This document shows, one piece after another, positions 2,462 through 39,435 of a stretch of DNA of 39,586 bases. The position numbers were made by a program, and so were the translations under genes. How positions within the stretch are numbered: the stretch's first letter is position 1; the number at the start of each line of letters is the position of its first letter. The notes below the pieces were generated by a model. It was not told where the DNA came from and searched no databases. It saw only the letters and a list, made by a program, of their open reading frames with translations. The stretch is from Flavobacteriaceae bacterium (lineage in GTDB: Bacteria; Bacteroidota; Bacteroidia; Flavobacteriales; Flavobacteriaceae), in NCBI GenBank assembly GCA_027080135.1, contig JALWUJ010000144.1:1-39586 (forward strand), in the 5' to 3' direction.

Positions 2462-4630
2462 ATGACTAAAACAGAAGAAAAAATTGAATTTTACATCGCT
2501 GAGATGGAAAAATTAGGAGTAAATTTTAATAAAGATTTATTCACAAATGTAGCAAAAGGATTAGGACCAGCACTTTTTAATAAAGATGCAGAAATTGTTT
2601 CTTGTACCGATGCTGCAGAAGTTTTAACAGTTAAGAAAAATTTCTTAATCAAAAAACACGGTTTAGAAGATTCAGAAAAATTAGATGCTGCTATTACTGC
2701 GGTATGTGAAAAAATGGGAACTTCTAATCGAAATAAATACCGTGCTATTTTTTACTATTTATTAGTTGAAGATTTAGGTTTAGCAGGTAATTATGAAAAC
2801 AAAAGTGAAGAAAAGTCTGTAGAAAAAACAGAAGAAAAAACAGTAAAAGAAGAACCAAAAAAAGAACTTTCTCTAAAAGAAACAAATCCAGAAAAATTTC
2901 TTACAGATTTTAACTGGCACAATTATCAAGAAGGTATTGACCCAATTGATGATGGTAAATTAGAGGAATTCGAAAAATTAGTTGCAGACAATTTTGTAGA
3001 TACTTTAGATAATGAAGTAGTTGAAGGAGAAGTTGTTTATATAACAGACCGCGATGCCATTATCGATATTAATGCAAAATCTGAAGGAGTTATTTCATTA
3101 AATGAATTCCGTTACAATCCAGATTTAAAAGTAGGTGATAAAGTTGAGGTTTTAATTGATGTTCGTGAAGATGCAACTGGACAGTTAATCCTATCTCACC
3201 GTAAAGCAAGAACCATTAAAGCTTGGGAGCGTGTTAATAAAGCACACGACGAAGGAACAATTGTTAATGGTTTTGTTAAATGTCGTACTAAAGGAGGTAT
3301 GATTGTAGATGTTTTCGGAATAGAAGCATTCTTGCCAGGTTCTCAGATAGATGTAAAGCCTATTCGCGATTACGATGTGTATGTTGACAAAACAATGGAA
3401 TTCAAAGTGGTAAAAATTAACCACGAATTTAAAAACGTAGTTGTTTCGCATAAAGCACTTATCGAAGCAGATATCGAAGAACAAAAGAAAGAAATTATTG
3501 GTCAATTAGAAAAAGGACAAGTATTAGAAGGTGTGGTTAAAAACATTACTTCTTACGGTGTCTTTGTTGATTTAGGAGGTGTAGATGGATTAATTCATAT
3601 CACAGACCTTTCTTGGTCTCGTATTAACCACCCTAATGAAATTGTAGAATTAGACCAAAAATTAAATGTTGTAATTCTTGATTTTGACGAAAATAAATCA
3701 CGTATTCAATTAGGTCTTAAACAATTAAGTAAACATCCTTGGGATAACTTAGGAGAAGATGTAAAAGTTGGCGATAAAGTAAAAGGTAAAGTAGTTGTTA
3801 TTGCAGATTACGGTGCATTTATTGAAGTTGCAGACGGTGTTGAAGGATTAATTCACGTTAGCGAAATGTCTTGGTCAACTCACTTACGTAGTGCTCAAGA
3901 TTTTGTAAGCGTTGGTCAAGAAGTTGAAGCAGTTATTCTTACTTTAGATCGCGAAACAAGAAAAATGTCTTTAGGTATCAAACAAATTACTCCAGATCCT
4001 TGGACAGATATCACCAAAAAATATCCTGTCGGTTCTACCCATAAAGGTATTGTGCGTAATTTCACAAACTTTGGAGTTTTTGTAGAAATGGAAGAAGGTA
4101 TTGATGGATTAATTTACATTAGTGATCTTTCTTGGACTAAGAAAATCAAACATCCTAGTGAGTTCTGTAATATCGGAGACGAATTAGATGTAGTAGTGCT
4201 AGAATTAGATGTAGAAGGACGTAAATTAAGCTTGGGTCATAAACAAACTACCGAAAATCCTTGGGATAAATATCAAGACGAATTTGCAGTAGGAACCAAG
4301 CATACAGTTACTATTTCTGATATAGTTGACAAAGGTGCAACCATCGTATTTAACGACGATATTACTGCTTTTGTTCCAACTCGCCACTTAGAAAAAGAAG
4401 ATGGAACCAAGTTAGGAAAAGGTGAAGAAGCAGAATTTGAAATTATTGAATTTAATAAAGAATTCAAAAAAGTTGTAGCTTCACATATGACAATTCATAA
4501 AGAAGAAGAAGCTAAAATTGTAAAACAAGCTGTTAAAAAGCAAGCAGCACAAGCTGCAGAAGCTAAACCAACACTTGGTGATGCAAACGATGCTCTTCAA
4601 GCTCTTAAAGATAAAATGGACGGAAAATAG
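2462..4630 (+). CDS. rpsA: 30S ribosomal protein S1 with extra N-terminal DUF2853-like domain
   Basis: A 722-residue S1, the mRNA-binding protein of the small subunit. Six S1 OB-fold repeats are visible, starting near residues 185, 265, 352, 437, 524 and 611; repeats 3-5 carry signatures such as GVFVDLGGVDGLIHITDLSW. From about residue 143 (FLTDFNWHNYQEGIDP) the sequence follows flavobacterial S1 proteins of about 590 residues, which as I recall them begin there. The first 107 or so residues are extra: FNKDAEIVSC, VKKNFLIKKHGLED and GTSNRNKYRAIFYYLLVEDL match what I know of DUF2853, normally a free-standing small protein of unknown function. A Lys/Glu-rich linker (about 111-140) joins the two parts. 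The frame is continuous and the start is the first ATG after a strong promoter. The gene is monocistronic with its own terminator. Confidence 0.95.
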   Translation: MTKTEEKIEFYIAEMEKLGVNFNKDLFTNVAKGLGPALFNKDAEIVSCTDAAEVLTVKKNFLIKKHGLEDSEKLDAAITAVCEKMGTSNRNKYRAIFYYLLVEDLGLAGNYENKSEEKSVEKTEEKTVKEEPKKELSLKETNPEKFLTDFNWHNYQEGIDPIDDGKLEEFEKLVADNFVDTLDNEVVEGEVVYITDRDAIIDINAKSEGVISLNEFRYNPDLKVGDKVEVLIDVREDATGQLILSHRKARTIKAWERVNKAHDEGTIVNGFVKCRTKGGMIVDVFGIEAFLPGSQIDVKPIRDYDVYVDKTMEFKVVKINHEFKNVVVSHKALIEADIEEQKKEIIGQLEKGQVLEGVVKNITSYGVFVDLGGVDGLIHITDLSWSRINHPNEIVELDQKLNVVILDFDENKSRIQLGLKQLSKHPWDNLGEDVKVGDKVKGKVVVIADYGAFIEVADGVEGLIHVSEMSWSTHLRSAQDFVSVGQEVEAVILTLDRETRKMSLGIKQITPDPWTDITKKYPVGSTHKGIVRNFTNFGVFVEMEEGIDGLIYISDLSWTKKIKHPSEFCNIGDELDVVVLELDVEGRKLSLGHKQTTENPWDKYQDEFAVGTKHTVTISDIVDKGATIVFNDDITAFVPTRHLEKEDGTKLGKGEEAEFEIIEFNKEFKKVVASHMTIHKEEEAKIVKQAVKKQAAQAAEAKPTLGDANDALQALKDKMDGK

Positions 4631-4655
4631 TAAGTTCATTTATAACTATGCAAAG

Positions 4656-4684
4656 GCCTCTCTTTTTAAAGTGAGGCTTTTTTT
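4656..4684 (+). terminator. Intrinsic terminator of rpsA
   Basis: GCCTC-T-CTTT, a TT loop, then AAAG-T-GAGGC followed by seven T residues (4678-4684), starting 26 nt after the rpsA stop. Strong stem and U-tract in the right orientation. Confidence 0.9.
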
Positions 4685-4718
4685 ATGCTTGTAAATAAAC
4701 AAAACCTAAAAAAAATAG

Positions 4719-4726
4719 TATTTTTG
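4719..4726 (+). promoter_or_regulatory. Candidate -7 element for the pyrR operon
   Basis: TATTTTTG matches TAnnTTTG and lies 31 nt before the pyrR ATG, just after the rpsA terminator. No clear TTTG at -33. The remaining leader is too short for a PyrR-type antiterminator/terminator switch. Confidence 0.4.
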
Positions 4727-4757
4727 TTCCCTGAACAATAGTTTAGAACTTTCTAAT

Positions 4758-5297
4758 ATGAGCCAAAAAGTGTTACTCAACAAAACCGAAGTACAAATAG
4801 CACTTCATCGTTTGGCTTGTCAATTAATCGAAAATCACGATACCTTTTTTAATACTGTTTTAATAGGGATACAACCTAGAGGGATTTTTTTGGCGGAACG
4901 AATTAAATCTTTGCTTGAGAAAGACTATCAAGTAAAAAACATTCAATTGGGGTATCTAGATATTACTTTTTATCGCGACGATTTTAGAAGAACAGAAAAA
5001 GCTATAGAAGCCAATAAAACCAACATCAATTTCCTCGTAGAAGGAAAAAAAGTGGTGTTTATAGATGATGTATTATATACAGGAAGAAGCATTCGTGCAG
5101 CATTAACAGCAATTCAGTCTTTTGGAAGACCTTTAGAAATAGAGTTGCTCACCTTTATTGACAGACGTTTTAGTAGGCATTTACCCATTCAGCCTGACTA
5201 TAGAGGAAGACAAGTAGATGCTATAAATAACGAAAAAGTTAAAGTTTGTTGGAAGGAAAATGATGGTGAAGATGCAGTATATTTAATAAATAATTAA
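4758..5297 (+). CDS. pyrR: PyrR: pyr regulator / uracil phosphoribosyltransferase
   Basis: A 179-residue type I phosphoribosyltransferase. The PRPP-binding loop VVFIDDVLYTGRSIRAAL is at about 99-116, the substrate region IGIQPRGIFLAERI at about 36-49, and the PyrR-typical LTFIDRRFSRHLPIQPDYRG near 136-155. In Gram-positive bacteria PyrR binds pyr mRNA leaders and weakly converts uracil to UMP. Here the gene leads the run pyrR-pyrB with only 5 nt before pyrB, so it belongs to pyrimidine synthesis. The leader is about 31 nt and shows no attenuator hairpin, so a uracil phosphoribosyltransferase role, or regulation of other transcripts, is as likely as control of this operon. Identity is clear; regulatory function is inferred. 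Confidence 0.93.
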   Translation: MSQKVLLNKTEVQIALHRLACQLIENHDTFFNTVLIGIQPRGIFLAERIKSLLEKDYQVKNIQLGYLDITFYRDDFRRTEKAIEANKTNINFLVEGKKVVFIDDVLYTGRSIRAALTAIQSFGRPLEIELLTFIDRRFSRHLPIQPDYRGRQVDAINNEKVKVCWKENDGEDAVYLINN

Positions 5298-5302
5298 TTA
5301 AT

Positions 5303-6241
5303 ATGAAGGAATTAAGTGTAAAACACTTATTAGGTATTAAATACATCACCGAAGATGATATTCAATTAATCTTCGAAACAGCAGATCATTTTAAAGAAGT
5401 AATTAATCGCTCTATTAAAAAAGTACCTTCCCTTAGAGACATTACCATTGCCAATCTGTTTTTCGAAAACAGTACACGAACAAGACTCTCTTTTGAATTA
5501 GCTGAAAAAAGACTATCGGCAGATGTGATAAATTTTTCAGCTGCTTCCTCTTCTGTAAAAAAAGGAGAAACTTTAGTCGATACTGTAAACAATATTTTAT
5601 CTATGAAAGTAGATATGATAGTAATGCGACATCCCAATCCTGGAGCGGGAATATTTCTGTCCAAACACATTAATGCAAGCATTATTAACGCAGGTGACGG
5701 TGCACACGAACACCCTACACAAGCCTTGTTAGATGCTTATTCTATTCGAGAAAAATTTGGCGATGTTTCAGGAAAAAATGTGGTAATTGTAGGAGATATT
5801 CTTCATTCAAGAGTAGCTTTGTCTAATATTTTTGCCCTTCAGAAATTAGGTGCAAATTTAAAAGTTTGTGGACCAAAAACGTTACTTCCTAAATATATTG
5901 AATCTTTAGGTGTAGGGGTTGAAACCAACCTTAAAAAAGCATTACATTGGTGTGATGTGGCCAATATGTTGCGTGTTCAGAACGAACGAATGGATATTAG
6001 TTACTTCCCAACCACTAGAGAATACACACAACAGTTTGGTTTAAATAAAAAACTTTTAAACTCATTGGATAAAGAAATTGTTGTAATGCATCCGGGACCT
6101 ATTAACAGAGGCGTAGAAATTACAAGCGATGTGGCTGATTGCAAACAAGCAATTATATTAAACCAAGTAGAAAATGGAGTTGCAATACGAATGGCAGTAT
6201 TGTATTTATTAGCTTCAAAAATTGAGCGAAATGAAAATTAA
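5303..6241 (+). CDS. pyrB: Aspartate carbamoyltransferase, catalytic chain
   Basis: A 312-residue cytosolic enzyme that joins carbamoyl phosphate and aspartate to carbamoyl aspartate, the committed step of pyrimidine synthesis. The carbamoyl-phosphate loop FFENSTRTRLSFE (STRTR at 57-61), HPTQALLDAY in the middle and MHPGPINRGVEI near the C-terminus are all intact. Length is normal for the class lacking a regulatory chain, and no pyrI is seen here. It lies 5 nt after pyrR and its last codons overlap the start of the next gene by 11 nt, so the three are very likely cotranscribed and the third translationally coupled. Confidence 0.96.
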   Translation: MKELSVKHLLGIKYITEDDIQLIFETADHFKEVINRSIKKVPSLRDITIANLFFENSTRTRLSFELAEKRLSADVINFSAASSSVKKGETLVDTVNNILSMKVDMIVMRHPNPGAGIFLSKHINASIINAGDGAHEHPTQALLDAYSIREKFGDVSGKNVVIVGDILHSRVALSNIFALQKLGANLKVCGPKTLLPKYIESLGVGVETNLKKALHWCDVANMLRVQNERMDISYFPTTREYTQQFGLNKKLLNSLDKEIVVMHPGPINRGVEITSDVADCKQAIILNQVENGVAIRMAVLYLLASKIERNEN

Positions 6242-6554
6242 AAACCACGAAACGTTTAGTTTATTTATACCTGAAAATGAATCATTAGAAGAAATAATTT
6301 CCTTTCTTTCAAAAAACATTTCAGATAAAAATATTGCTTTAGATTTATTAAAAAACAAAAGGTTTTTATTAGAAGATTTATTGCTGTTTTTAGAAATTTC
6401 AAACAAGCACCGTTCTGAAAATCATTCATTTGTACTAATAAATAATAACATTAACCCCAACGATATTCCCGATGAAATTGTTGTGGTTCCTACAATGCAA
6501 GAGGCTGAAGATATTATTGAAATGGAAGAAATAGAGAGAGAACTTGGCTTTTAA
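6231..6554 (+). CDS. Conserved small protein between pyrB and rnz (STAS-like?)
   Basis: A 107-residue acidic protein of unknown function. I start it at ATG 6231 (MKIKNHETFSLFIPENE); a TTG three codons upstream is the only in-frame alternative. The start overlaps the pyrB stop by 11 nt and the stop lies 9 nt before rnz, so it is locked into this operon. The pattern of a short beta-rich start, LLLFLEISNKHR, then SFVLINN and a very acidic end VVPTMQEAEDIIEMEEIERE resembles small STAS-type proteins found at this place in flavobacteria, which tend to be labelled after the neighbouring ribonuclease Z. It has no metallo-lactamase motif, so that label would be wrong. STAS-like fold is inference. Confidence 0.8.
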   Translation: MKIKNHETFSLFIPENESLEEIISFLSKNISDKNIALDLLKNKRFLLEDLLLFLEISNKHRSENHSFVLINNNINPNDIPDEIVVVPTMQEAEDIIEMEEIERELGF

Positions 6555-12144: not shown

Positions 12145-12148
12145 CAAT

Positions 12149-12450
12149 AGCAGACCGTCTCATCGTCCCATTTTATTTTGGGGAGGAAAGTCCGGACACC
12201 ATAGGGAAGCATAACGGCTAACGGCCGTCATCCGTTTTTGGCGGATAGGACAAGTGCAGCAGAAAGAATGTACAGGTAATGCTGTAGTGAAATCAGGTAA
12301 ACTCTATGCGGTGCAATGCCATGTAAACTTGCGTTTGAGGGTTCCCGCCCAATGCAAGAGGGTAGGCAGATAAAAAATATTGGTAACAGTATTTTTAGAT
12401 AAATGATGAGATTCACTTAGGTGAAACAGAATCCGGCTTATAGGTCTGCT
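12149..12450 (+). ncRNA. rnpB: RNase P RNA (bacterial type A)
   Basis: The catalytic RNA of RNase P, which matures tRNA 5' ends. Universal blocks are present: GAGGAAAGTCCGGACACC near 12182 (CR-I), GTGCAGCAG then ACAGG in the specificity part, GAAATCAGGTAAACTC near 12290, GAGGGTTCCCGCCC near 12338, and near the end ACAGAATCCGGCTTATAG (CR-V). The ends pair as helix P1: AGCAGACC at 12149-12156 with GGTCTGCT at 12443-12450. A run of T from 12450 ends the transcript. A short open frame on the opposite strand inside it is not a gene. It lies between dnaX and rsmD, both on the other strand. Confidence 0.97.
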
Positions 12451-12500
12451 TTTTTTAATTCTTTCGAATGAATCTTTAAAATTATTTTATTAAAGAGATG

Positions 12501-32670: not shown

Positions 32671-33933
32671 ATGAAAAAGCAAATATTAATAGCTGGACTT
32701 TTATTGATTTCAGCAATAACATTTGGACAAAAAAAAGAAATTAAAATAGCACAAAAATTAGTAAAATCTAATAACTTTTCTGAAGCTATTTCAACTTTAA
32801 AACAAGTAGAAAGTACAATTTCTAGTGCAGATGCCAGTACAGAACAACATTATTATACCTTATTAGGTCAAGCATATTTAGGTGATGCTGGAAATGACTT
32901 TGATAAAATGAATAAAGCTGGAGATGCTTTTGAAAAAGCACTAGCTGTAGATAAAAAAGGAAAATATAAAACGGATATTGAAAAAGGATTAAATGATTTA
33001 AAAAATGCATTGATAGAAAGTGCAAAATTGGATCAAAAATCTAAAAACTATATAGATGGTTCAAAAAAACTTTATAAAGGTTATACCTTAAGTAAAACAG
33101 ATACTATCTTTTTATATTATGCTGCATCGTTTGCAACAGATGGAAAAAGTTATGACGATGCAATTAAGTACTATTCAGAATTGTTAGATCTTGGCTATAC
33201 AGGTATAACTACTCAGTATTATGCAGTTAAAAAAGGAACTAATGAAGAAACTTTGTTTAACACAAAAAAAGAAAGAGATTTAGTAGTTAAAAGTAGAGAA
33301 TATGTATTGCCAAAGGATAAAAAAACCAAATCTAAAAAAGCAGACATATTAAAAAGTTTGACCTTTATATATAGTATAACAGGAGATTTAGAAAAGGCAA
33401 AAGAGTTAATTAAAGATGCTAAAAAAGAAAATCCAGATGACATGGATCTTTTAAATGTTGAAGCTAATATGTATTATAAAGCCAACGATTTAGTTAGTTA
33501 TAAAAAAGTGGTTAACGAAATGATTGCAAAAGATCCTAAAAACCCACAATTATATTATAATCTTGGTGTAGCTAGTAAAAAAAATGGTGAAATTGAAGAC
33601 GCTTCAAATTATTATAGCAAAGCAATAGAATTAAAACCTGATTATGTTGAGGCACTAATTAATAAATCTCAAATAATTTTAGATGATGAAGCTGCTATTA
33701 TAGAAGAGATGAATAGTTTAGGTACATCTAAAGCAGATTACGATCGTTATGATGAATTAAAAGAAGTTAAAAATGGAATATATAAAGAAGCTTTACCTTA
33801 TTTAGAGCGAGCTCTTGAAATTCGTAAAGACGATGTAGATATTATTAGAACTCTTAAAAGTATGTATGATCTTTTAGGAATGGATGATAAAGCAAAAGAA
33901 ATGAGAGCCAGATTGGCAAAATTAGAAGAATAA
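32671..33933 (+). CDS. Secreted TPR-repeat protein downstream of gyrA
   Basis: A 420-residue protein with a Sec signal peptide (MKKQILIAGLLLISAITFGQ, cleavage after the Gly-Gln region is typical for flavobacteria). The rest is helical and carries tetratricopeptide repeats; the clearest are near residues 32-66, 145-175 and 285-325 (PQLYYNLGVASKKNGEIED then ASNYYSKAIELKPDYVEALI). No enzymatic domain is visible, so it is likely a periplasmic scaffold for protein-protein contacts. It shares an operon with gyrA (35-nt gap) and ends at a strong terminator. The link with gyrA is probably positional rather than functional. Confidence 0.88.
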   Translation: MKKQILIAGLLLISAITFGQKKEIKIAQKLVKSNNFSEAISTLKQVESTISSADASTEQHYYTLLGQAYLGDAGNDFDKMNKAGDAFEKALAVDKKGKYKTDIEKGLNDLKNALIESAKLDQKSKNYIDGSKKLYKGYTLSKTDTIFLYYAASFATDGKSYDDAIKYYSELLDLGYTGITTQYYAVKKGTNEETLFNTKKERDLVVKSREYVLPKDKKTKSKKADILKSLTFIYSITGDLEKAKELIKDAKKENPDDMDLLNVEANMYYKANDLVSYKKVVNEMIAKDPKNPQLYYNLGVASKKNGEIEDASNYYSKAIELKPDYVEALINKSQIILDDEAAIIEEMNSLGTSKADYDRYDELKEVKNGIYKEALPYLERALEIRKDDVDIIRTLKSMYDLLGMDDKAKEMRARLAKLEE

Positions 33934-33956
33934 TTCTTGTTAAGAATAAACACTAA

Positions 33957-33992
33957 AAAAACCTCTATCTATTAAAAGATAGAGGTTTTTTT
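33957..33992. terminator. Bidirectional terminator between the TPR gene and microgene 1
   Basis: AACCTCTATCT pairs with AGATAGAGGTT around ATTAAA; A-run on the left and T-run on the right, so it works for the plus-strand TPR gene and for the minus-strand microgene that ends 21 nt away at 34013. Confidence 0.92.
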
Positions 33993-34012
33993 AATTTTAA
34001 AACATAAGTAAA

Positions 34013-34114
34013 TTAATAGGTGCTTAATTTGTTAAAACGACGTTTATTATTCCAATTAAAAGACTTTGATGTTTTTACTCTTTCTGTTAATTTATTGGTA
34101 TTTAAAGTTATCAT
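34013..34114 (-). CDS. Basic 33-residue microprotein, copy 1
   Basis: A 33-codon frame starting with ATG 34114. It begins MITLNTNKLTE and its core is FNWNNKRRFNKLST. Eight Lys/Arg against one Glu give a net charge of about +7, so RNA, ribosome or membrane binding is plausible. It is not a chance frame: a second gene at 38295-38396 encodes a protein of exactly the same length with 19 of 33 identical residues in an ungapped alignment, and most differences are Lys/Arg or Ser/Thr exchanges. Both have TAATTTTG at nearly the same distance upstream and an intrinsic terminator just downstream. No Trp-less variant is seen: the WN-x-KRRF core is fixed. I do not recognise a named family. Confidence 0.75.
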   Translation of the reverse strand: MITLNTNKLTERVKTSKSFNWNNKRRFNKLSTY

Positions 34115-34169
34115 AGTATAATTATTTTAATGATTTTGAAGATTAGACGATTAAATTCTAATTTCGTTA

Positions 34170-34177
34170 CAAAATTA
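34170..34177 (-). promoter_or_regulatory. -7 element of microgene 1
   Basis: Minus-strand TAATTTTG, a full match to TAnnTTTG. Fifty-five nt separate it from the ATG, almost the same as the 56 nt in microgene 2. No TTTG at -33. Confidence 0.6.
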
Positions 34178-34256
34178 CCATAAAATAATTCGTTTTAATA
34201 AATATAACAAAATATTAACATAAAAAAATATTATAAAACTGCGAATAATATAATAA

Positions 34257-36644
34257 TTATTGAATTGGTTTAAAAATTACTTTTGTTGAAGTTGATATAA
34301 TTTCTTCCTTATTCATTTTCATCTTTCTAAATTCACCTTTATTAAACATTTTGGCTTGATCGCGGTAATGTTCGCTTAACGGGTTTCCAGATTGCCCAGT
34401 AGGATTAATACTTATGCTGTTTTCTATATCATTAAAGTCGATAATTCTTCTTGTCGAAGGACCATAAGTAACATTATATATTCCAGTTTCATCTCTGTTA
34501 TAATCTAAATTATTGATCACTTCAGCACCACCGTTTATAGGAAAAGGACCTACATTAAAAAAACTTCTTAATACTTCCACAGTACCTATTGGATGCTTGT
34601 GCTCTATAAAATGAACTCGGTTCCAAGTCCAACTAGTCATAGTTGGTCCAAGCTGTTTTTCTAAGGAAGCAACGGTTTCAATTAAAGTTTTGGATAAAAT
34701 ATCTTTTTTAGTTTCCATTACATCTTTAGTTCTTATATCGTCCCACCAAACAGACGAATCTTTCTTTATTTGAAAAGCTATTTCACGTCGTTTTAAGTGT
34801 GTTTCGTCAAAAAGTGAATAGAGTTCTTCTCCCATTTCATCTTCAAAAGTATTCTTCATATACAAATAAATAAATTTGTTATAAATAGTAGGAGCAATAG
34901 CATCTTTTGTGTATGAACCATCCCATAGTTGAAGTACATCGAAAGCTTGTTTTTCTAGTTTATTAAAGGAGTTATAATTTAGTGTTTTTGCTATATCTTT
35001 AATAATTTCTGGCGCCACTGATGAAGTGACATCGGTAATCATTTCGCTAGAAGCTTTCATGTTCCAATTATTTTTTGGTTCTAATAATCGCACAATTCTT
35101 TTGGCTCTATCTTCTGGAATATAGTATCCTGGATATAACATTCCTGCGATACTGTCGGGCTGATTGTTGGCAGAATATACATAATTCCACTCAGGATTTT
35201 CTGCCATCGGGTTTTCTGAAAAATCTAAATATTCTACAATATCATCTTCACCCGAAGTTCCATCTAAAATAAACTTTGTATTTACATGAGGTTTGTATTT
35301 GTAAAGTTTTGCAGATGCATACCAAGCAATGTTTCCTTTTGCATCTCCATACATTAAATTAAGACCTGGAGCGTGTAAAAGGGAAGCTCCTTTTTTAAAT
35401 TCTTTCATGTTATTTGCAGTGGACATTAGATGAACTACTTGAGGCAGTTTATTATCCAACTGTGTATAAGCCCAAGACATGGCAATAGGGGTTTCTTCTG
35501 TAATTCCTTCGAAAACATCATTAATAATGGGGCCATGACGGGTAAATCTTAATTTGAAGGTTACATCTTCGGCATCTTTAACTTTAATAGTTTTTGTAAT
35601 AACTTTGTAGCTTTCGTAACCATTAGGAGTTTTGTATTTTGTTTTGTCTGTTGGATGATTTTCTTCTCTATAAAGTTCAATGTCGTCGTTTTCAAACATA
35701 GTAATACCGTAGGCGATATCACGATTATGCCCCAACATAGCAAACGGAATTCCTGCCATATGATAACCATACATTTCGTAATTAGGAGTTATTGTATGAG
35801 CTTCATACCAAACCGAGGGTTGAGCAAAACCAATGTGTGGATCATTTGCTAAAATTACTTTTCCGTTGGAAGTTTTATTGGGCGAAATTACCCAACTATT
35901 AGACCCAACAAATGGAGGAATGGGATTGTTGTTTAAAATTGAATTTACTTCAGAAAGCATAGTAGTATAGTTATTTATTTCCTGTTTAGAGTTTTTAATA
36001 AACAATGTTTCTGGGCTAACTGAAATATCTAAATCATTTATATAATCGTTTCCAAGTTTTAATTGAAGTGCACTTAACAAAGGCTCAGTTTTATGAGCTT
36101 GTGCAAAACTAAATGCTAGATAACCCATAATATTATATATATCTTTAATTACAAAATGCCTCTTCTCAAGCCCTAGAATTGTATATTCTATAGGTGTTGG
36201 ACCTTCATCCATAAATTGGTTAACCCCTTTTAAATATGCTTCCATTATTTTATAAACTTCGCTATTTTTATTTAGTTCGTTTACAGATTGTTCCGAAGCT
36301 TCATCAATTCCTAATGATGCAAAAAAGGTATCATTTTTTATTAAATCTTTCCCAAATATTTCAGAAAGACGACCTGGAGATATTCTTCGCATTAATTCCA
36401 TTTGCCATAAGCGGTCTTGTGCGTGTACATAGCCTAAAGTTGTAGTGGCATCTAATCTGTTTTGAGCATAAATATGTGGTATTCCGTATTCGTCGTAATA
36501 AACGGTTGTTTCATTTTCAATATTGGCTAACGAAACTTCACCAGAATAACTAGGTTTTAAATGATTGTAATACCAAAAACCAGCAATGGAGATAAGAATA
36601 ATTAATATAAAAAGGAACTTTAGAATTTTCTTAAAAATACGCAT
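34257..36644 (-). CDS. Penicillin acylase family N-terminal-nucleophile hydrolase
   Basis: A 795-residue precursor of the penicillin G acylase/AHL acylase family. An N-terminal membrane anchor or signal (FLFILIILISIAGFWYY) leads to the alpha part with GIPHIYAQN and GYVHAQDRLWQMELMRR. Self-cleavage is expected before Ser248 in PPFVGSNSWVISP, which becomes the catalytic N-terminus of the beta part; ILANDPHIGFAQPSVWYE follows as usual. Members hydrolyse amide bonds of side-chain acylated compounds, including beta-lactams, N-acyl homoserine lactones or peptides; the natural substrate here cannot be read from sequence. It acts in the envelope. Single gene with a -7-like element at 36670-36677. Confidence 0.9.
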   Translation of the reverse strand: MRIFKKILKFLFILIILISIAGFWYYNHLKPSYSGEVSLANIENETTVYYDEYGIPHIYAQNRLDATTTLGYVHAQDRLWQMELMRRISPGRLSEIFGKDLIKNDTFFASLGIDEASEQSVNELNKNSEVYKIMEAYLKGVNQFMDEGPTPIEYTILGLEKRHFVIKDIYNIMGYLAFSFAQAHKTEPLLSALQLKLGNDYINDLDISVSPETLFIKNSKQEINNYTTMLSEVNSILNNNPIPPFVGSNSWVISPNKTSNGKVILANDPHIGFAQPSVWYEAHTITPNYEMYGYHMAGIPFAMLGHNRDIAYGITMFENDDIELYREENHPTDKTKYKTPNGYESYKVITKTIKVKDAEDVTFKLRFTRHGPIINDVFEGITEETPIAMSWAYTQLDNKLPQVVHLMSTANNMKEFKKGASLLHAPGLNLMYGDAKGNIAWYASAKLYKYKPHVNTKFILDGTSGEDDIVEYLDFSENPMAENPEWNYVYSANNQPDSIAGMLYPGYYIPEDRAKRIVRLLEPKNNWNMKASSEMITDVTSSVAPEIIKDIAKTLNYNSFNKLEKQAFDVLQLWDGSYTKDAIAPTIYNKFIYLYMKNTFEDEMGEELYSLFDETHLKRREIAFQIKKDSSVWWDDIRTKDVMETKKDILSKTLIETVASLEKQLGPTMTSWTWNRVHFIEHKHPIGTVEVLRSFFNVGPFPINGGAEVINNLDYNRDETGIYNVTYGPSTRRIIDFNDIENSISINPTGQSGNPLSEHYRDQAKMFNKGEFRKMKMNKEEIISTSTKVIFKPIQ

Positions 36645-37229: not shown

Positions 37230-38228
37230 ATGAATAAGCAATTAATATTAGTAAAACGTCCTGAAGGAATTCCAGAAAAAGATACCTGGAAAATAGAAAC
37301 CAAACCAATTATAGAACCAAAAGAAGGTGAAATTTTAATACAACATCATTATATTTCTTTAGATCCCGCGATGAGAGGTTGGATGATGAATCGTAAATCT
37401 TATGTTCCTCCTGTAGAAATAGGAGATGTAATGAGAGCCGGAAGTATTGGTAAAGTAATAAAAGCCAACAATCATCCAGATTTTAAAGAAGGTGATTGTA
37501 TTGTAAATTGGGGAGGAGTTCAACAATACCTCACCACCGATGCTGAAAATTGTTATAAAGTAGATGATAGCTTAGTACCCATGCCAAAATATTTAGGAGC
37601 TTTAGGAATGCCAGGAATGACAGCCTATTTTGGAATTTTACAAGTAGGAAAAATTAAAGAAGGCGATATTGTTTTGATTTCTGGGGCTGCTGGAGCTGTT
37701 GGAAGCATTGTTGGACAAATTGCTAAAATTAAAAGTTGTACCGTTATCGGAATTGCAGGTGGAAAAAAGAAATGCGATTATATGATAAATGAATTGGGCT
37801 TTGATGCTGCTATCGATTATAAATCGGAAGATGTAATGGAAGCTTTAAACGAAAAATGCCCAAAAGGAATCGATGTATATTTTGATAATGTAGGAGGAGA
37901 AATTTTAGATGCTGCCCTCACCAAATTACGTCTAAATGCTAGAGTGGTTATTTGTGGTGCTATTTCGCAATACAATAATGCAAATGATATTGTAGGACCA
38001 AAAAATTATTTATCATTACTCGTAAATAGAGCTACGATGCAAGGAATGGTTGTTCTAGATTATGCAAAAGATTATAGCACTGCCACACAAGAAATGGGAA
38101 TGTGGATGATGCAAGGAAAACTAAAAAGCAAAGAAGATATATACGAAGGAATTGAAAATTTTTACGAAACCTTTATGCGTTTGTTTAATGGAGAAAAACT
38201 TGGAAAATTACTTTTAAAAGTGATATAA
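37230..38228 (+). CDS. NADP-dependent oxidoreductase (MDR, leukotriene B4 dehydrogenase/CurA type)
   Basis: A 332-residue zinc-free medium-chain reductase that saturates alpha,beta-unsaturated carbonyls with NADPH. It opens LVKRPEGIPEKDTWKIETKP and YISLDPAMRGWMMNRKSYVP, typical of the prostaglandin/leukotriene reductase group, and the Rossmann motif is ISGAAGAVGSIVGQIAK near 150-166. The KKCDY and GIDVYFDNVGGEILDAAL segments are also typical. No catalytic zinc cysteines are present, as expected. Bacterial examples include CurA and enone reductases that detoxify lipid-derived aldehydes. Single gene; it diverges from the unknown protein across 95 bases. Confidence 0.92.
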   Translation: MNKQLILVKRPEGIPEKDTWKIETKPIIEPKEGEILIQHHYISLDPAMRGWMMNRKSYVPPVEIGDVMRAGSIGKVIKANNHPDFKEGDCIVNWGGVQQYLTTDAENCYKVDDSLVPMPKYLGALGMPGMTAYFGILQVGKIKEGDIVLISGAAGAVGSIVGQIAKIKSCTVIGIAGGKKKCDYMINELGFDAAIDYKSEDVMEALNEKCPKGIDVYFDNVGGEILDAALTKLRLNARVVICGAISQYNNANDIVGPKNYLSLLVNRATMQGMVVLDYAKDYSTATQEMGMWMMQGKLKSKEDIYEGIENFYETFMRLFNGEKLGKLLLKVI

Positions 38229-38251
38229 ACAATACAATAAATTTTCATAAA

Positions 38252-38287
38252 AAGCCTCGAAAATTTAAATAATCATTCTCGAGGCTT
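38252..38287 (-). terminator. Terminator after microgene 2
   Basis: AAGCCTCGA (38252-38260) pairs with TCGAGGCTT (38279-38287). On the minus strand it lies 7 nt after the microgene stop and ends in TTTTTATG, a fair U-tract; on the plus strand the tail (CTTCATTTG) is weak. Confidence 0.75.
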
Positions 38288-38294
38288 CATTTGT

Positions 38295-38396
38295 TTAAGG
38301 AGTACTTAAAGTTCTAAATCGCCTTTTGGAGTTCCATTTAAACACCTTAGTTCTACTAGATGTTTCTGTTAACCGATTACTGTTTAAAGTTCTCAT
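38295..38396 (-). CDS. Basic 33-residue microprotein, copy 2
   Basis: A 33-codon frame from ATG 38396, beginning MRTLNSNRLTE with core FKWNSKRRFRTLST. Nine Lys/Arg against one Glu make it even more basic than copy 1. In an ungapped alignment with copy 1, 19 of 33 residues are identical, with the invariant blocks TLN-x-N-x-LTE and WN-x-KRRF. It shares a divergent control region with the DUF302-like gene: its TAATTTTG (38453-38460) is the mirror image of that gene's, about the palindrome at 38482-38497. The terminator at 38252-38287 closes a transcript of about 200 nt. Function unknown; it may be a regulator or partner of the DUF302-like product, or unrelated to it. Confidence 0.75.
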   Translation of the reverse strand: MRTLNSNRLTETSSRTKVFKWNSKRRFRTLSTP

Positions 38397-38452
38397 TACT
38401 ACAAATATTTAAATTTATTTTAAAGGAAATATCATATTCCTTCAAACTTTGT

Positions 38453-38526
38453 CAAAATTAAAAGGCAATAAATTAGTATTCTATGACCTAAGTCATACTT
38501 CTAGGTTTTTATCTCAATTAATTTTG
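38453..38526. promoter_or_regulatory. Symmetric divergent promoter with central palindromic operator
   Basis: CAAAATTA (38453-38460, the minus-strand -7 TAATTTTG), 21 nt, TATGAC-CTAA-GTCATA (38482-38497), 21 nt, TAATTTTG (38519-38526). Neither promoter has TTTG at -33. The palindrome has the TGA-N6-TCA core shared by CRP and FNR sites and would be centred near -41.5 for both promoters, the class II activator position. Confidence 0.65.
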
Positions 38527-38547
38527 TAGGAAATAAAAACCAAAATA

Positions 38548-39435
38548 ATGAAAAACTTTATAGTTATTGTCTTAATGACATTTGCCTTCGGAATGAATTC
38601 CGTTGCTCAGAAAATCGCTCCTTATATTAAAATTGGAGAAACTCATGAAAGTATTCAGAAAGCTTCAGATAATGTAATTGAAGCGTTGAAAAATAATGGT
38701 TTCACCGTTTTAGGAAATTACAATCCTTCAGAAAAAAGTACTTTAAAAGTGATTGCTTTTACTCAAAATGAATTAAAAAATACCGTAATAAAAGTAAAAG
38801 ATCGAGGTGCTTTAGCTGCTGTATTTAAAGTAGGTTTAGAATTTTCTAACGGAAAAGTAATCTTATCATACACCAATCCAGATTATATTTTAAGAGCTTA
38901 CTTAGGAGATAATTATAAAACCTACAAAAGTAAATTTGAAGCATTTAGCAAATCGTTAAAATCTACCTTTTCAACCTTAGGAAATGACTTTACACCATTT
39001 GGAGGAACCGTAGATGCAGATGAATTAGGCGAATACCATTATAAAATAATGATGCCTTATTTTTCAGACCCTATTGAATTAAAAGAGTTTTCATCTTTTG
39101 AAGAAGGAGTGAGAGTTATTGAAAAAAACCTTTCAGCTAGAAAAGGAAAAACAAAACTTGTTTATACCTTAAAGTACACTTCAAAAAAAGTTGCAGTATA
39201 TGGAATCGCCTTAGAAAGCAAAGATAATGGAGAGGCAGAATTTCTCCCAATCATAGGTGAATCACACCTAGCAGCTCTTCCTTACGAAATAATTTTACAA
39301 GGTAAAGAGACCACCATGTTACACGGAAAATACAGATTAGCACTTCATTGGCCAGAACTCTCAATGGGAACATTTATGAAAATTATGAGCACTCCTGGTG
39401 ATATAGAAGACACACTTAAAGCATTATGTGAGTAA
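38548..39435 (+). CDS. Secreted DUF302-like protein
   Basis: A 295-residue exported protein. The signal peptide is MKNFIVIVLMTFAFGMNSVA-Q. The first half, with ASDNVIEALKNNGFTVLGNY, LKVIAFTQ and KVILSYTNPDYILRAYLGDN, has the helix-strand pattern and SY-NP-Y motif of DUF302, and the second half ends LPYEIILQGKETTMLHGKYR then LALHWPELSMGTFMKI, a region I know from similar proteins but cannot name. Family function is unknown. It is driven from the symmetric promoter shared with microgene 2, which suggests response to a CRP/FNR-type signal. DUF302 assignment is from recalled motifs, not a search. Confidence 0.8.
   Translation: MKNFIVIVLMTFAFGMNSVAQKIAPYIKIGETHESIQKASDNVIEALKNNGFTVLGNYNPSEKSTLKVIAFTQNELKNTVIKVKDRGALAAVFKVGLEFSNGKVILSYTNPDYILRAYLGDNYKTYKSKFEAFSKSLKSTFSTLGNDFTPFGGTVDADELGEYHYKIMMPYFSDPIELKEFSSFEEGVRVIEKNLSARKGKTKLVYTLKYTSKKVAVYGIALESKDNGEAEFLPIIGESHLAALPYEIILQGKETTMLHGKYRLALHWPELSMGTFMKIMSTPGDIEDTLKALCE

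Follow-up and report, generated by a model that had tools for sequence, protein, structure and literature searches.

The very small, basic proteins FbpA, FbpB and FbpC of Bacillus subtilis belong to a stress regulon and have been suggested to act as RNA chaperones in place of Hfq; in the part of the account drawn on here, RNA binding by FbpB is still without experimental evidence (PMC7430163). Short stress transcripts that occur in several copies are known from Listeria, where the LhrC small RNAs (sRNAs) are, according to the partial description used here, driven by envelope stress through a two-component system. In a 39,586-nucleotide (nt) stretch of DNA from a Flavobacteriaceae bacterium (assembly GCA_027080135.1, contig JALWUJ010000144.1, positions 1 to 39,586 of the forward strand), which we refer to as the window, we analyzed two genes for 33-residue basic proteins, here called copy 1 and copy 2, together with the family to which they belong.

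In small size and basic charge (28-33 residues, +4 to +9) the family resembles the Fbp proteins, and its stress regulation is predicted from the promoter pattern. The Fbp proteins come from another phylum and are controlled by Fur rather than by an extracytoplasmic function (ECF) sigma factor, and the sections of their description used here make no mention of tandem arrays (PMC7430163), the form in which the genes described below often occur. Like LhrC, these genes can be repeated several times at one locus. LhrC, however, as portrayed in the excerpt used, is a regulatory RNA, whereas the repeats of this family code for peptides on which purifying selection acts, and their folding does not surpass that of shuffled sequences. 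A third point of comparison is provided by the SM6 sigma-ECF promoters of Flavobacterium psychrophilum, where low-nutrient induction would be the likeness; the targets listed in the portion of that source considered here are type IX secretion system (T9SS) genes, with no microprotein array mentioned (PMC9723704).

Two paralogous protein genes in the window

An earlier note on this DNA, made from the letters alone, had singled out two unannotated minus-strand frames of equal length as paralogous basic microproteins. Both frames are present and intergenic, and their products, supported by translation of the open reading frames (ORFs), by ratios of nonsynonymous to synonymous substitution rates (dN/dS) and by related loci, are as follows.

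34013..34114, minus strand: copy 1, 33-residue microprotein MITLNTNKLTERVKTSKSFNWNNKRRFNKLSTY
38295..38396, minus strand: copy 2, 33-residue microprotein MRTLNSNRLTETSSRTKVFKWNSKRRFRTLSTP

The two proteins align without gaps over 33 residues each with 19 identities, and their net charges, counted from the residues, are +7 and +8, as had been stated. BLASTP matched copy 1 to copy 2 at an expect value (E) of 2e-11, and in an all-against-all comparison of the 142 ATG-initiated ORFs of 20-80 residues in the window this pair ranked best (E = 2.4e-11; runner-up pair 0.001). Nucleotide identity between the copies was 0.79, 0.64 and 0.52 at codon positions 1, 2 and 3, the pattern expected from coding sequence. 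Pooled dN/dS was 0.07 for the 33-residue form represented by copy 1 and 0.17 for the copy 2 type (six members each, own included). The match, the codon-position bias and the dN/dS values thus agree with conservation at the protein level, and a mere DNA repeat is ruled out by the last two. The stated lack of homology between the flanks nearly holds: from 400 bases upstream to 300 bases downstream, a single significant match was found (76% over 63 nt, E = 1e-6), made up of the initial 34 nt of the ORF together with 27-29 A-rich nt that precede it. On the sequence evidence, both frames are genuine protein genes of a microprotein family. The further suggestion that the products bind RNA, ribosomes or the membrane is deduced from their charge.

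A family of basic microproteins in Flavobacteriaceae

The window pair are the only members found in their own genome (173 contigs, 81% complete). With a profile built from these two sequences, 18 of 59 genomes, own included, were matched at E <= 0.01, one of them (G004) by a weak match with two stops, and none of 23 genomes from other families of the order was matched. When an 18-sequence profile was run on 397 genomes from the same taxonomic family, 126 of them (own included) gave matches, spread over 85 of 237 genera. A draw across the order yielded 10 matching genomes out of 395, all from that same family, the share of the sample lying outside the family being unstated. A scan of named genomes confirmed 220 of 243 stretches, with carriers in Winogradskyella, Algibacter, Aquimarina, Hyunsoonleella, Lacinutrix, Flavivirga, Aequorivita, Ulvibacter, Psychroflexus and other Flavobacteriaceae; a few matching metagenome-assembled genomes are named just Flavobacteriales, Bacteroidia or Bacteroidetes. 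The homologues for which the earlier note had called are therefore present in many genomes, and roughly one third of the sampled genomes of the taxonomic family encode a protein that is missing from the curated family libraries searched.

Of the 220 confirmed stretches of that scan the best 80 were kept, so that sequences close to the queries are over-represented. From 227 distinct ORF hits in 140 loci, 17 with E >= 0.01 were dropped and one 19-residue fragment was excluded from the codon test; the final set has 209 members (207 distinct at 84 nt), while array counts rest on 210 ORFs, with duplicate loci merged. Most members are 28 residues long (179, with 15 each of 29 and 33 residues) and have the form MRTLNxNQLT...TKxYxWNxKRRYR. 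Among the 207 distinct sequences, M1, L4, W21, R25 and R26 are invariant, R2, T3, N7, N22 and K24 are near-invariant, and positions 11-15, 18, 20 and 23 vary most. The WN-x-KRRF core proposed from the pair largely holds across the family for W, N, K, R and R, but its final aromatic residue is usually Y (148 Y compared with 55 F, of 207). Codon-position entropies of 0.63, 0.66 and 1.05 for positions 1 to 3 and a pooled dN/dS of 0.24 (3954 pairs; this and the other dN/dS values pool non-independent pairs), far below 1 as in the nearest sets, indicate that the members are coding, and all six Arg codons occur at the invariant R26. The mean charge is +6.2 (range 4 to 9). The members are thus microproteins of 28-33 residues from Flavobacteriaceae, and they are strongly basic, poor in cysteine and non-hydrophobic.

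The view that the pair matches no described family stood up, with no significant match in Pfam, NCBIfam, PHROGs or PDB. The pair itself gave one chance Pfam hit (DUF2701, 0.29) and no NCBIfam hit, and 50 family members gave no NCBIfam family, one chance Pfam hit (0.058), one chance PHROG hit (0.068) and a best PDB E of 2.5. A search of the open-access literature, with subscription papers and preprints outside its reach, found no description of the family, which is apparently undescribed. An origin in phage or plasmid genes was rejected: one 28-residue query for each collection failed to match any of 72,556 plasmid or 50,697 phage records, and the 43 pattern stretches located in viral contigs all went unconfirmed. 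The pair gives an incomplete picture. Both window genes are single-copy, C-terminally extended outliers, whereas the typical member has 28 residues and often lies in a multi-copy operon; the earlier note, right about the pair, lacked the tandem arrays, the second peptide and the promoter elements that are treated below.

Tandem arrays and a second small ORF

The 111 arrays comprise 44 single, 46 double, 14 triple, 4 four-copy, 2 five-copy and 1 six-copy arrangements (67 with two to six copies), counted in loci of ~3 kb whose ends may cut arrays short. Copies within an array are mostly 115-156 bp apart. A second ORF of 43-49 residues follows the last copy in 65 arrays. In 20 shuffles this happened 0.8 times on average and at most 3 times, a control that, like those for the hairpins and the upstream repeats, preserves base composition only. 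It is present in 52 of the 67 multi-copy arrays and in 13 of the 44 single ones. This companion changes faster in sequence, yet its length, its charge (mean +5.9, 2 to 9) and, often, a W-x3-KRYA end are kept, and dN/dS was 0.12 for the 43-residue class (18 pairs), 0.18 for the 44-residue class (20 pairs) and 0.47, from one usable pair, for the 45-residue class. Profile comparison detected no homology between the 28-residue and 43-49-residue peptides (6 columns, probability 5%). Searches with 44 companion members returned four Pfam and two NCBIfam families, each in one member at E 0.04-0.08, and a best PDB E of 0.63.

A terminator-like hairpin follows 48 of 110 arrays (4-8 in mononucleotide shuffles). 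The next gene of at least 90 residues is convergent in 68 of the 111 arrays, on the same strand in 38 and missing in 5, by a mechanical rule that may count chance ORFs. The commonest genetic form is an ECF-type promoter, one to six tandem 28-residue ORFs and often then a basic ORF of 43-49 residues, and that a coding family is here organized as an operon seems to us hardly open to doubt. The tandem layout would be an unusual and directly testable instance in which the number of cistrons determines how much protein is made. In two loci (L016 and L041), we also observed a near-identical ORF 44-52 nt past the last 28-residue ORF (113 residues in L016, of which the first 70 residues were compared in L041), which has no Pfam family and, by eye, a secretion-type leader.

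Signals at the RNA level

Some features of the arrays lie outside the peptide sequence. The motif ATCAATCA occurs at 6.78 per kb in array transcripts compared with 0.063 elsewhere on the same strand, mostly coding DNA, a ~100-fold difference. The motif stands before 64 of 99 internal ORFs and 39 of 65 companions; the count is just 20 of 111 for first ORFs and 7 of 470 for long ORFs. ATCA repeats in the array spacers (for example in L030 and L132) are perhaps a translation-initiation element. At R25-R26, AGA/G is followed by CGN in 172 of 209 members compared with 113 of 313 background Arg pairs in neighboring genes. Excess RNA structure was not found in 38 arrays (mean z +0.43 relative to shuffles). 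At the Rfam gathering score, matches were limited to four tRNAs in 20 selected loci and to RNase P in the window; 14 weaker Rfam hits, all below the gathering scores, all overlap a terminator hairpin, and a known RNA was rejected.

The promoter block and its predicted regulon

A GTAAC/CGTC pair at fixed spacing is the form of an ECF-sigma promoter. GTAAC-N16-CGTC lies within 300 nt ahead of 96 of the 111 arrays, with a spacing of 16 in all 96 even though 13-20 was allowed, and the consensus of these promoters reads GTTAAAAttTGTTAAAtTA.TACTTTGTTATaCATAGTACT followed by GTAAC...CGTCTATttAGTATAA. Farther upstream, a GTTAA-N5/6-GTTAA direct repeat is present in 88 of the 96 promoters (0.1 expected by shuffling) and a palindrome in 71. 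To judge from this pattern, transcription of the arrays is probably under the control of an ECF sigma factor, and what stands before them looks like an envelope-stress promoter.

The combined palindrome-GTAAC block (up to 2 mismatches) has one site per genome in ten single-contig genomes, except for one genome with two. The extra site in that genome pointed to a further palindrome of similar sequence, TACTTTG-N5-CAAAGTACTTT (allowing 1 mismatch), with two sites in five of six genomes and none in the sixth. In the ten resulting loci (L180-L189), the site lies just ahead of a gene for a protein of 202-207 residues or of a membrane-protein gene, and an HTH_34-like gene is present in all ten (one partial, at the locus end). 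By Pfam, the membrane protein belongs to DUF4153 in one of the genomes and to CreD in a second, and the HTH_34 label is confirmed in two; a 203-residue protein of the operon, the one tested, has no Pfam family. This operon, in which the palindrome stands twice, is probably an autoregulated envelope-integrity operon and, given the similar palindrome, the HTH_34 protein likely binds the array palindrome as well.

In the window's own genome, GTAAC-N16-CGTCTW has six sites, compared with one for the reversed pattern. They precede a CarboxypepD_reg receptor-like protein (two sites), a rhodanese, an ABC ATPase (L144; label by eye), copy 1 and another CarboxypepD_reg protein; the first CarboxypepD_reg target looks like an outer-membrane receptor. 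Four single-contig genomes have 22 sites, compared with 0 for the reversed pattern, and these include one array in each genome along with a MacB/FtsX permease, an ABC ATPase, DUF456, ankyrin, an M61 peptidase, beta-barrel genes and several unlabelled genes. The predicted regulon is an envelope-leaning set. Little is known of stress regulation in this phylum, and the promoter block could serve as a marker for the inputs that envelope stress receives through ECF, winged-helix and response-regulator proteins.

Arrays in other settings

At several loci, the 28-residue gene stands in different company. In L131 and L137, ~100 nt separate a single gene from a downstream operon for a histidine kinase and an OmpR-type regulator (labelled by Pfam in L131). 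In both (3900-6283), a GGTTAAC-N5-GGTTAAC-like site, the 28-residue gene, a terminator-like inverted repeat identified by eye and the kinase/regulator genes follow one another. Three copies in L132 (3700-4230), with a sigma54-like TGGCAC-N5-TTGC upstream by eye, adjoin a sigma54 activator gene and precede an HlyD-ABC-MacB efflux operon. L136 has one copy ahead of an ABC ATPase gene (label by eye), and some other arrays precede a same-strand gene such as that for ExbD. L131, L137, L132 and L136 suggest that other stress promoters have come to drive the 28-residue ORF.

Possible functions of the peptides

The reading that we favor, tentatively, combines a coding unit, ECF stress control and binding to RNA or ribosomes. 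The array unit would be switched on by an ECF sigma factor whose other predicted targets include many envelope genes (MacB/FtsX permease, ABC ATPase, outer-membrane beta-barrel and CarboxypepD_reg proteins); a winged-helix (HTH_34) protein and a direct-repeat site of response-regulator type probably contribute as well. The multiplication of the cistron with an unchanged protein suggests that the product would be needed briefly but in large and stoichiometric quantity. During envelope or nutrient stress the peptide may then bind RNA or ribosomes in the cytoplasm, in an RNA-chaperone-like or ribosome-tuning manner. The near-invariant W21-N22-x-K24-R25-R26-aromatic motif together with the lack of a membrane-spanning stretch make this the most likely site and mode of action, which we nevertheless put forward with reserve; the motif would also provide a handle for target finding. 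The nearest working parallel would be the role suggested for the Fbp proteins in B. subtilis, itself unproven. In a more specific version, the arrays would be a new class of bacterial stress effector, a polycistronic 'peptide battery' under an envelope-stress sigma factor: as many as six near-identical basic peptides of 28 residues and one partner of 43-49 residues would act jointly and stoichiometrically on the translation or RNA machinery of Flavobacteriaceae, with cistron number setting the dose. This version is speculative and on balance doubtful. If the products are made, annotation and proteomics have overlooked a conserved and possibly abundant envelope-stress component.

Several observations weigh against this reading. 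By the criterion used, 46 of the 111 arrays have no second ORF, and the exact ECF motif is missing from 15, window copy 2 among these. Some predicted targets (rhodanese, ankyrin) are not envelope genes. No sigma gene was found behind the six sites of the own genome, which is 81% complete, or as the first ORF of more than 80 residues behind the 22 other sites. AlphaFold models of the 28-residue-type peptide (one C-terminal helix) and of the second peptide (one N-terminal helix) have low confidence, with predicted local distance difference test (pLDDT) scores of 69 and 63, and leave an RNA-binding fold without support. The spacer ATCA repeats and the fixed codon order at R25-R26, finally, fit an added RNA-level role.

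Small proteins tune sensor kinases in other systems, and a regulatory peptide with one protein partner, which would exert feedback on a sensor kinase, an anti-sigma factor, a protease or an efflux complex, would suit both the strict N- and C-terminal motifs and the genes ahead of the kinase/OmpR operon (L131, L137), the HlyD-ABC-MacB operon (L132) and the ABC ATPase (L136). The neighbors vary among loci, however, with a convergent next gene in 68 of 111 arrays, the L131 kinase was found in one of six searched genomes at E <= 1e-50, and there only in part, and two to six copies exceed the need of a trace regulator; we regard this alternative as somewhat unlikely. Action on the membrane or envelope from within, by binding anionic lipid or lipopolysaccharide precursors or by sealing damage, would draw on the charge of +4 to +9, the invariant Trp, the envelope-leaning regulon and the similar palindrome at the CreD operon. 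The peptides are hydrophilic, however (mean grand average of hydropathy, GRAVY, -1.47; highest 11-residue Kyte-Doolittle window 0.5; 209 members), with no hydrophobic stretch, no signal peptide by eye and a middle rich in Ser, Thr and Asn, and we consider such a role unlikely. The same hydrophilicity, with no transmembrane stretch, makes membrane insertion and type I toxicity unlikely. Tiny ORFs in tandem copies are the layout of several type I toxins, in which toxic peptides are restrained by antisense RNA, and the arrays combine this layout with a stress promoter; neighbors are nevertheless kept across genera, one neighboring gene family being common to 44 of 80 loci, and one query each gave no match in the plasmid and phage sets, with none confirmed in the viral contigs, so that a toxin family is scarcely credible.

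The two remaining alternatives place the function in the transcript. A dual-function or chiefly RNA-level element, a multi-copy stress RNA with ORFs comparable to tandem stress sRNAs, would account for the ATCAATCA enrichment in spacers and the AGA/G-CGN codon order, but the amino acids are under purifying selection, the arrays have no excess structure and no Rfam family other than the tRNAs in the 20 loci, and the spacer motif sits where a translation-initiation spacer would; we find this reading improbable. Leader peptides attenuating a downstream gene could explain why a terminator-like hairpin comes after the short ORFs in 48 of 110 arrays and why a same-strand gene, such as that for ExbD, lies downstream of some. 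Most arrays have no common downstream gene, however, the next genes being of several kinds and in 68 of 111 cases convergent, tandem copies and a second ORF would be senseless for attenuation, and no run of a regulatory amino acid is present. Attenuation is accordingly very improbable.

Control elements and surroundings of the window genes

Copy 1 lies in a gap (33933-34257) between a TPR protein gene (plus strand, ending at 33933) and a penicillin-amidase-family gene (minus strand, stop at 34257), and copy 2 in a gap (38228-38548) between an oxidoreductase gene (plus strand, ending at 38228) and a divergent gene for 295 residues (plus strand, starting at 38548) with no Pfam family. The oxidoreductase neighbor is kept in all five loci related to copy 2, and the TPR-gene neighbor in two of the five related to copy 1 (L003, L004). 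The following elements were identified around the two genes.

34146..34170, minus strand: ECF-type promoter of copy 1, GTAACGAAATTAGAATTTAATCGTC (GTAAC-N16-CGTC), beginning 56 nt ahead of the start codon
34170..34177, minus strand: TAATTTTG, resembling the housekeeping -7 box (TAnnTTTG) and overlapping the first base of the copy 1 ECF -35 element, at position -63; putative function
34205..34219, minus strand: GTTAATATTTTGTTA, degenerate GTTAA-N5/6-GTTAA direct repeat of copy 1 at position -105; the full repeat is typical before arrays
33945..33995, minus strand: intrinsic-terminator-like hairpin after copy 1, hairpin and T-run 17 nt past the stop, in intergenic DNA also bordered by the convergent TPR gene
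38453..38460, minus strand: TAATTTTG, -7-box-like element of copy 2; TAnnTTTG at -53 to -64 in six of six loci, own included
38484..38495, no strand assigned: palindrome TGACTTAGGTCA in the interval that separates copy 2 from the divergent gene at 38548; TGAY-N4-RTCA in six of six loci, own included
38246..38286, minus strand: intrinsic-terminator-like hairpin after copy 2, hairpin and T-run 8 nt past the stop, in intergenic DNA also bordered by the convergent oxidoreductase gene

Across the window, GTAAC-N16-CGTC has no match other than the copy 1 promoter (shuffling predicts 0.07). The element recurs at -55/-56 in four of five related loci. In the fifth, L004, a ~60-nt insertion with an inverted-repeat-like stretch splits the ECF promoter. 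Upstream of copy 2, no GTAAC-N16-CGTC was found, and a housekeeping-type promoter is present instead; TAnnTTTG is the -7 box consensus of housekeeping promoters in the part of the source consulted (PMC9723704). The 43-49-residue partner ORF was found at neither window copy. We infer that the window genes are single-gene derivatives, copy 1 under the ECF promoter and copy 2 under the housekeeping-type promoter.

The TGAY-N4-RTCA palindrome stands at -90 to -99 before copy-2-type genes in three loci and at -189 to -197 in the other three. In the window, it is flanked by two divergent TAATTTTG boxes, that of copy 2 and, by eye, that of the 38548 gene, and it resembles a Crp/Fnr-type site. Elsewhere in the window, the Rfam match at 12147-12456 corresponds to a bacterial RNase P class A RNA.
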